In this document: in pieces, positions 9,003 through 26,546 of the stretch
Layout of the letters: every line of letters starts with the position of its first letter
Numbering within the stretch: the first letter of the stretch is position 1
From: an uncultured archaeon
GTDB taxonomy: Archaea > EX4484-52 > LFW-46
Direction of reading: 5' to 3'
Assembly (NCBI GenBank): GCA_902384675.1
Contig: CABMCT010000056.1
Location: forward strand, 1 to 32,890
Length of the DNA stretch: 32,890 nucleotides
Made by a program: the position numbers and the translations under genes
Notes under the pieces: model-generated
Seen by the model: only the letters and a program-made list of their open reading frames with translations
The model's database searches: none
What the model was told of the DNA's origin: nothing

Positions 9003-9104
9003 CTACCGCTCATAAGTCCACGCTTCTTACTTATGGGTAATGTTGCTACTTTTAAATATTTATACAATAATAGAACGAGCTAAAAATCCTTTCGTTACAC
9101 TCTA

Positions 9105-9278
9105 GGCTTTTCGACCCAAAGAATTGGCATATGATTGAAAATCATGACATTTCATATCAAGATTTTTCACCCAATGCAATTGTGTAAGGTTGAAAATCCT
9201 CTCACTGCGCCAAATTAGCCATTATGCGCTTCGTTCAAGGCTTTTTATTCCAAAGAAATTGGCTAATGAATAAAAATC
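9105..9278 (+). repeat. Three related ~39-nt lopsided hairpin repeats (9105-9143, 9161-9198, 9239-9278)
   Basis: Shared layout: G(C/A)TTTTyxAxCCAA - short loop - (A)TTG(G) - ~6 nt - complementary arm ...AAAAATC. Confidence 0.6.
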
Positions 9279-9286
9279 CCAAAAGA

Positions 9287-9396
9287 GGCTTAAGTCAATC
9301 TCGGCCTTCAAAAGAAGTCATGAAAATCTTTATCATATTGTTTTGATTTTCATGCGTTCCAAACTCTTGCGAGTTTGGAAACAGATGACTTAAGCC
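9287..9396 (+). other. Three-way-junction-like fold
   Basis: Outer 11 bp GGCTTAAGTCA (9287-9297)/TGACTTAAGCC (9386-9396); inner CATGAAAATC/GATTTTCATG (9319-9328/9345-9354) and TTCCAAACTC-TTGC-GAGTTTGGAA (9357-9380), all perfect. Confidence 0.65.
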
Positions 9397-9415
9397 CCTC
9401 ATTGGTTTCAATAAT

Positions 9416-20312: not shown

Positions 20313-20520
20313 AAACCCTCGTTACATTCTAACTTGCGCAGAACAAGTATTTTAATCCCCGGACTCTAAGCAACCAAACCTATATCTTGGCCAATTAAAA
20401 TCCATAAACCCGCCATCATTTGGATAATCGTTGTTTGTCGACGTTATAAAACATGCGAATTTTTCCTTAAATACTTATAAATATATCCTCATGCAATAAT
20501 ATCTATCATGCCTTGCGACA

Positions 20521-20735
20521 AGATTTCAACCCAAGGCATAATTAGAATGGTTAAAAATCCGTTCGCGATGCCTTATAAGCCATTTTGAGGAACTAAAGGA
20601 GTCCAGATACTTCGTATCAAGCTTTTCAACCCAATAATAATTGTGAATGGTTAAAAATGGAGAATGATAAAAAATCATGGAAACTGCGGTTTCCAGGCTT
20701 TTTTATCCAATAAATATGGAGAATGATAAAAAATG
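20521..20735 (+). repeat. Hairpin repeats (20521-20559, 20630-20659, 20696-20735) and 19-nt direct repeat (20657-20675, 20716-20734) in the leader of the downstream gene
   Basis: Same lopsided hairpin layout as 9105-9278; ATGGAGAATGATAAAAAAT occurs twice, the second copy overlapping the start codon at 20733. Confidence 0.6.
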
Positions 20736-21011
20736 GCAGATTACACAATCGAGATAAAACCTCCGGAAAAGATGGAACTGATAATCACCGGCCCAGAAGG
20801 CCAGCAAATCGAGCTTGACCCGAACAAGTTCCAGCAGATAACATTCGACTACGACGGCGATACGCTCGTTTTCCAGGGAAAGAAGGTAAGCTCGGTTGCG
20901 TCACTTCGATGCATATCGGATGTTTTCTGGATGATACTTTCGCTTACTTCCAAAGGATTCGAGATAAAGCCGAACGAACCTATAGAAATTTTGAAAAAAG
21001 TTATGAAGTGA
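20733..21011 (+). CDS. Hypothetical 92-aa protein
   Basis: Coding-like ORF, 7 bp from the downstream zinc-ribbon gene. Confidence 0.7.
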   Translation: MADYTIEIKPPEKMELIITGPEGQQIELDPNKFQQITFDYDGDTLVFQGKKVSSVASLRCISDVFWMILSLTSKGFEIKPNEPIEILKKVMK

Positions 21012-25704: not shown

Positions 25705-26181
25705 ATGGATTTCTTAAATAAAATGCTTTGGCAATTTGGATTAACCGAAGAAACACACCTTGAATCGTCAGAAGTTCTGCATGTGCCTATATATGTTGCC
25801 TCTCAAGAATACAAAGAAGTCCCTGTGATTATGGGCGACATGCTTACAATTTCTTGGAACGACGTTTTAAAAAGATATTTTATTAGCTTTAAATCAAAAA
25901 GAAAAAATCGCGACATATTTCTGACCTTGGATAACAAGGAACTGTTTGAAGCTCTGGAAGAAGGTGATGAAGCAGTTCTGTACTACACCATTGTACGCGA
26001 AGCAGTCCATGATTACAAGCCGCCCAATTTCAAAAACAAAGAGCGCTTAGGAAGAAAATTCATTGCATACTTGCCTTTAAGCATAGAATCGGATAGTCTC
26101 CGAAATAGAAAATATGAGATACAGAAGGATGGCAAAGACAGGATATTTTGGGGAGCATACAGAAGGAATCATCCAGTATGA
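25705..26181 (+). CDS. Hypothetical protein, tandem paralogue B
   Basis: See paralogue A. Confidence 0.8.
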   Translation: MDFLNKMLWQFGLTEETHLESSEVLHVPIYVASQEYKEVPVIMGDMLTISWNDVLKRYFISFKSKRKNRDIFLTLDNKELFEALEEGDEAVLYYTIVREAVHDYKPPNFKNKERLGRKFIAYLPLSIESDSLRNRKYEIQKDGKDRIFWGAYRRNHPV

Positions 26182-26264
26182 TAGTCTGGATTTAATTATT
26201 CTTCATCGCCGCTCAATCGCGGTTGCCTCGAATTCATCTCGTTGCGCTCTCGCTTACTCGAAGC

Positions 26265-26299
26265 TTTCCAGTCCAAATTAATTGGTGAATTACTGGAAA
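26265..26299. repeat. Hairpin repeat TTTCCAGT-CCAA-ATTAA-TTGG-TGAATT-ACTGGAAA
   Basis: Perfect 8-bp outer and 4-bp inner arms; same layout as the repeats at 9.1 and 20.5 kb. Confidence 0.6.
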
Positions 26300-26309
26300 T
26301 ATCGCAATT

Positions 26310-26546
26310 TCACTCCTCGTTCTCAGCAGCCATCTTCTTCTCAACGCCGTCAAGAAGGCCCGCCAGTGTCTTGCCGATGAATCTCGCATCTATGGGCTCC
26401 TTGAAAACAACTGTGACATCCTTCATTCCGTCGACCTTGTCAAGGTTTTCGATGTCAACGTCGTCCACAAAATCGCAAGAGCCGAGCTTTTTCTCCAAAT
26501 CAGCCCGCTTGACATTTGACAGGAACCCGACCATTGTGATTCTCAT
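26310..26546 (-). CDS. Small conserved-looking protein of unknown function
   Basis: MRITMVGFLSNVKRADLEKKLGSCDFVDDVDIENLDKVDGMKDVTVVF...; TATA (CTATTTAAACC) about 25 nt upstream favours this start over 26564. Confidence 0.6.
   Translation of the reverse strand: MRITMVGFLSNVKRADLEKKLGSCDFVDDVDIENLDKVDGMKDVTVVFKEPIDARFIGKTLAGLLDGVEKKMAAENEE

Follow-up and report, generated by a model that had tools for sequence, protein, structure and literature searches.

The short hairpins that recur in this 32,890-nt stretch of DNA (the window) are very probably the right-hand half, here called H1, of a mobile, non-autonomous element that measures about 55-110 nt and is built of two hairpins. Five nested insertions and several exact empty sites show that the element is mobile. 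The double hairpin enters as one piece, in a single orientation, and duplicates nothing of its target beyond, at most, a single ambiguous T.

The window is contig C56 of a 1.198-Mb draft genome in 76 contigs (G000; 1,197,632 bases once its stretches had been rejoined for the scripts). It carries genes for FtsZ, a class I tRNA synthetase and a GTP-binding protein with a TGS domain, and the named genomes in which FtsZ relatives occur are those of metagenome-assembled DPANN archaea, recorded under Aenigmatarchaeota or Nanohalarchaeota. The main comparisons were made with G001, a same-genus genome (sister species) of which 573 kb were compared, with G027, from a different family, and with G033 and G023, which share a genus with G027. 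An Rfam scan of the window gave no match above the gathering threshold.

Anatomy and copy number of the double hairpin

A covariance model (R1) was built from 48 diverse H1 members and matched 220 places in the whole G000 genome (E<=0.05). All seven units of the original prediction were among them, unit D being the weakest (Table 1). A hand-made descriptor, consisting of a 9-bp arm with an asymmetric 13-19-nt insert, returned 145 genomic matches with a score above 11 and 1 in shuffled sequence. Since the R1 members were partly picked by their pairing, a motif blind to pairing gives the fairer count: it found 81 distinct copies in G000 and 0, 0 and 0 in three shuffles, and at least three of the five variable arm positions were paired in 79 of these 81 copies (all five in 49, four in 25). 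The seven units thus lie where they had been placed, far above chance, and further copies do exist across the genome. The enrichment between genes that was to be checked was also seen, as only 7 of 145 H1 copies are mostly coding while 81% of the genome is.

H1 reads TTTnnnnnC, CAA.., GAAT and GnnnnnAAA in that order, and the base that follows is nearly always T. Its constant feature is the outer 9-bp stem, with 95.8% of the cells paired and many two-sided changes. The units had been described as outer arms that vary but still pair, enclosing an inner CCAA/TTGG element. The first half of this description holds; the inner stem is paired in 54.8% of cells only, is not diagnostic, and was dropped as the defining element. 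When lone units were folded, the drawn structure was clear for C, F and G only, and weak for A and D.

Reading the flanks of all copies revealed a second palindrome, H2, directly upstream of H1. It typically opens with TC and closes with GC, and occurs in a short (TCATGGAAC..GTTCCAAGC) or a long form (TCCGTTCGCGATGC..GCATCGCTCTCGGC). Of 127 H1 copies with GC at the junction, 80 had an H2 stem scoring at least 6 ahead of them, versus 4.4 in shuffled flanks. The unit therefore has a hairpin at both ends, H2 on the left and H1 on the right, and its plan is T-C-[H2 palindrome]-G-C-[TTTTnnnnC..CAA..GAAT..GnnnnAAAA]-T.

Table 1. Hairpin features of the window, with the evidence for each.
Feature	Position	Strand	Evidence
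H2-type palindrome of the first double hairpin (TCCTTTCG..CTCTAGGC)	9087..9107	+	sequence; H2 class
H1 unit A, arms TTTTCGACC / GATTGAAAA	9108..9141	+	R1 match 9105-9143, E=9e-6
H2 palindrome (TCATGACATTTCATATCAAGA)	9142..9162	+	sequence
H1 unit B (TTTTTCACC / GGTTGAAAA)	9163..9196	+	R1 match 9160-9198, E=6e-4
Long H2 variant, H3 (TCCTCTCACTGCGCC..GCGCTTCGTTCAAGGC)	9197..9241	+	sequence
H1 unit C (TTTTTATTC / GAATAAAAA, perfect)	9242..9276	+	R1 match 9239-9278, E=5e-9; folds as drawn
H2 palindrome (TCATGCCTTGCGACAAG), left border of the inserted array, following ..ATATCTA	20506..20522	+	sequence
H1 unit D	20523..20557	+	R1 match 20524-20556, E=0.03
Long H2, probably interrupted or rearranged (TCCGTTCGCGATGCCTTATAAGCCATTTTGAGG..)	20558..20601	+	comparison with intact copies
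H2 palindrome (TCCAGATACTTCGTATCAAGC)	20602..20622	+	sequence
H1 unit E	20623..20657	+	R1 match 20620-20659, E=1.6e-8
Right half of an older H1 (TGGAGAATGATAAAAAA), read as a nested-insertion leftover	20658..20674	+	paralogues
H2 palindrome (TCATGGAAACTGCGGTTTCCAGGC)	20675..20698	+	sequence, fold
H1 unit F with Shine-Dalgarno-like GGAG	20699..20733	+	R1 match 20696-20735, E=3.6e-8
H2 palindrome (TCATCTCGTTGCGCTCTCGCTTACTCGAAGC)	26234..26264	+	sequence
H1 unit G (TTTCCAGTC / TACTGGAAA)	26265..26299	+	R1 match 26262-26301, E=9e-8; strong fold, z=-3.4

The left half that matches the older H1, TTTTTATCCAAGTAAAA, is kept in the paralogues C29+32451, C31-37200 and C21-8638. The ORF at 20733-21011 takes the first base of its start codon, an A, from the end of unit F. 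Unit G is embedded in a longer repeat, a block of some 100-150 nt (CGCTCAATCGCGG .. TGTCGCAATGCCGCTCCTC; window 26160-26330), which also occurs at several loci of G000 (C18, C19, C25 and C49). Other types of inverted repeat, CATGAAAATC..GATTTTCATG and CCAAACTCTTGCGAGTTTGG, are found beside FtsZ at window positions 9300-9400 and belong to a more extensive intergenic landscape that is rich in palindromes. A second palindromic family (TTTCTTTCTTTCCAAGAAAGAA .. GAAAGAAAGGAGCGAC; G000 C22, C31 and C48, and G001 L159) sometimes holds H2-H1 units.

Among the 34 class or phylum genomes searched, matches were confined to G000, to G001, which has many of them, and to a single unit in G027, and a wider set of relatives gave no further matches.

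Empty sites, nested insertions and insertions in coding frames

The single G027 unit, 67 nt of H2-H1, lies within a coding gene at GAGGAA^TGGAAAG. Its empty site is preserved in G033 and G023, whose uninterrupted counterpart reads GATGAATGGAAAG; the alignment sets ..GAGGAA[67 nt]TGGAAAGAAAGG.. in G027 against ..GATGAATGGAAAGAAAGG in these two genomes. The length of 67 nt, not divisible by three, breaks the frame of the G027 gene. A multi-copy gene family (WKERGV..LRDHMTDWELILT), numbering up to six in a single genome across the relatives that were searched, has members in G027 (C109, L191), G000 (C12, C23 and C75) and several G001 contigs, and one G027 copy of it is interrupted by the double-hairpin element.

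Empty and occupied sites also coexist in one genome. Three copies of the G000 palindrome TTTTGGGACA[AC]AGGGTTCCCAAAA are intact, and three others are split exactly at GGG^TTCC (layout TTTTGGGACA[AC]AGGG|TTCCCAAAA), the inserted units starting with TCC and ending with AAAA. Between G000 and the compared part of G001, several arrays are cleanly missing at the orthologous place. One of these sites precedes a tRNA by a single base, and another is the window gene at 20733, whose orthologue in G001 is preceded by a short, simple leader.

Five independent H1 copies are split by another unit, all five at A^TGG (p ~3e-9, ATGG making up 2% of H1 positions). These nested cases were read one by one from their complementary halves; a mechanical search for half-sites is weak by itself (14 versus a shuffled mean of 4.0). 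Copies evidently re-insert beside and into one another, giving rise to arrays. The commonest target is A^TG(G), read as CCA^T on the bottom strand. The element does not keep to it strictly, as insertions at GGG^TTCC and A^TTAAG show, and TG stands on the right side at just 15 of 33 sites away from gene starts.

In G001, units lie in frame within conserved genes, those of RlmH, a radical-SAM-like protein, a Fic-like protein and the C-terminus of UvrA (names given from reading the sequences). The G001 RlmH has gained 22 aa, SNHSQTDLGWKASSGAKQNEMI, ahead of FVIGGANG. Insertions within coding frames were found in both orientations. The empty sites, the nested insertions and the in-frame coding insertions all bear out the original prediction of a mobile or regulatory family of small palindromic repeats. 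The idea that H1 arms are copied from the target flank, hinted at by two ATGAAA sites, was not supported, the identity between left flank and arm averaging 4.91 versus 4.72 in shuffled sequence.

Start codons and the carried Shine-Dalgarno motif

Among the 143 H1 copies with a called downstream gene, 111 are on the strand of that gene. An ATG stands at the end of H1 in 68 of 145 copies, and in 43 of them this codon begins a coding-like ORF of 40 aa or more. An A flanks the insertion on its left in 10 of 13 isolated gene-start units, so that removal of the unit rebuilds A|TG. When the leaders were rejoined in this way (for example ..GGAGAATGATATTTA|TGAGCG), a Shine-Dalgarno (SD) 4-mer was present in 10 of the 13, whereas other units had one in 8 of 33 cases (p=0.002). 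The elements themselves carry such a motif: GGAG, GAGG or GGGG lies in the H1 loop of 36 of 43 gene-start copies and of 4 of 102 copies elsewhere (p=1.5e-22).

Since the usual target is A^TG(G), insertion at a gene splits the start codon. The terminal A of the element then restores the ATG, and the gene-start copies that persist carry an SD in the asymmetric H1 loop, which would replace the displaced leader. The sites and the SD motifs are observed; ribosomes probably use the element-borne SD. We give about even chances to the full reading, namely a start-codon-adapted transposon family that splits A^TG, restores the ATG and brings its own SD, making insertion translationally silent, that has rewritten dozens of 5' leaders over time, and that is moved as single-stranded DNA by an enzyme reading the shape of the hairpins and not their sequence. 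The start codon, the most dangerous site of a gene, is exploited by the element at little visible cost: the end of the inserted unit rebuilds the codon, and the unit carries a ribosome-binding site.

The same copies could be viewed as a conserved 5'-UTR regulatory RNA, riboswitch- or thermometer-like with the SD held in a loop, whose spread is secondary. The strand bias towards the downstream gene and the SD in the loop of gene-start copies agree with it, and some genes have an array in both G000 and G001, with two-sided changes in the stems; retention of these arrays for a function is possible. However, among the non-Watson-Crick cells at variable arm positions (thinned set), A-C outnumbers G-T by 14 to 5. 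G-U is thus not favoured over A-C as in a selected sense-RNA helix, and selection on such a helix was rejected. Many copies also lack a gene start or an SD, and neither the coding-frame insertions in both orientations nor the exact empty sites suit a regulatory RNA, which we consider unlikely as the primary explanation.

Mobilisation and relation to known systems

For the mobile double hairpin, transposition is likely to be single-stranded and IS200/IS605-like, by way of the hairpins. Elements of the IS200/IS605 group make no target duplication, have hairpin ends and insert 3' of a tetra- or pentanucleotide (PMC7290912). An HUH (Y1) transposase acting in trans would read the hairpin shape and a short target, and the arm sequence could therefore drift while pairing was kept. 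That an enzyme of this class drives the element is a tentative proposal, to which we assign somewhat less than an even chance. No autonomous copy with the ends of the element was found at the Y1 loci of G000 and G001, both draft assemblies. The sole G000 Y1 transposase is part of an ordinary IS605 (tnpA-tnpB) with unrelated ends, the G001 Y1 genes have ends that differ from those of the element, and G033 has Y1 genes and lacks the element. Two G001 Y1 genes stand without tnpB, at C35:26310-26669 (L167) and C46:15909-16250 (L168), and are candidate trans mobilisers; no H1 or H2 was seen in their flanks. The H1 and H2 stems begin right at the junction, and no constant guide tetranucleotide was recognised by eye. 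Reverse transcriptases, as another kind of mobiliser, were not found in G000 or G001, and a search of IMG/VR for viral carriage with the two-module pattern gave no exact match.

These two solo Y1 genes, together with a REP-like copy number, mainly intergenic sites and the hairpin form, would also suit a REP/BIME-type element moved by a TnpA-REP (RAYT) enzyme. This is quite unlikely, since the H1 alignment has no GT[AG]G foot, the two unlike hairpins follow each other in direct order and not as inverted doublets, the arms vary freely, and no Y1 gene was seen beside the copies. In one survey, Archaea showed Y1 subclass 1.1 only, that is, typical IS200 (PMC6006769).

The way in which the arms change raises another alternative, that the palindromes are made and maintained by template switching during replication, without a transposase. 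Nine stems were compared at loci where both species have a unit: 16 pairs show two-sided change, 2 have become G-T and none is broken. Concerted change of the two arms is the pattern expected from template switching (PMC8794818). Nevertheless, this process leaves unexplained why a fixed two-hairpin unit is inserted exactly at A^TGG in genes that are unrelated, and also in another family, and as the whole explanation it is decidedly improbable. It may uphold the pairing of the arms after insertion: the arm changes fit concerted change, for instance by template switching, or recognition as single-stranded DNA. The two-sided differences at shared loci may also reflect one unit swapped for another in place. 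Two double hairpins adjoin what we take, from reading it, to be a 5S rRNA-like end in both species (G000 C53:7417-7508 and G001 L130:15715-15807), with two-sided changes in both H1 stems. Because the stems keep their pairing with almost no G-U intermediates, the family offers a clean test between structural selection and arm-to-arm template switching. It also provides a dense, datable set of insertions in a DPANN archaeon, a member of a group with little known mobile-repeat biology.

Integron-like attC sites share asymmetric hairpins of variable sequence and conserved shape, and tyrosine recombinases are present, but the arms here are TTTnnnnnC/GnnnnnAAA without the attC core motif (arms RYYYAAC/GTTRRRY), and the units form no cassette array but are dispersed over scattered genes, alone or as short arrays of hairpins, which leaves this reading hardly any chance of being right.

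On the features tested, the element is not a member of the REP/BIME, Rickettsia palindromic element or attC families. Like REP/BIME sequences (REPIN) with their RAYT (PMC2817692, PMC6006769), it forms imperfect hairpins of about 35 nt in some 200 intergenic copies and in arrays; unlike them, it has no GTAG-type foot, inverted doublets or associated RAYT that could be found, and its arm sequence is not conserved. Rickettsia palindromic elements (PMC10969869) are likewise palindromic repeats lying in frame within conserved proteins, and elsewhere. They are about 150 bp long and encode a conserved peptide, whereas the units described here are 66-67 nt, divergent in sequence and without a conserved peptide, and have a double-hairpin anatomy and start-codon targeting.

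By analogy, the element appears to work like non-autonomous IS200/IS605-type elements and like the double-hairpin elements of mitochondria (PMC2800124). With IS200/IS605 and its internally deleted, PATE-like derivatives it shares end hairpins, one orientation, a short target and the lack of target-site duplication; it differs in having no internal transposase gene, and an autonomous relative with the same ends was not found. The mitochondrial double-hairpin elements of Allomyces and other fungi and the repetitive hairpin-forming elements of sponges (PMC2800124) are also short paired hairpins, mainly intergenic, present or absent between close species and without an encoded protein. In contrast to these, the present element resides in an archaeal chromosome, has a defined A^TG(G) target and orientation, joins unlike hairpins in a fixed H2-H1 order and bears an SD in its gene-start copies. 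Start-codon targeting and the carried SD are what is new in it with respect to the known double-hairpin and IS200-like elements.
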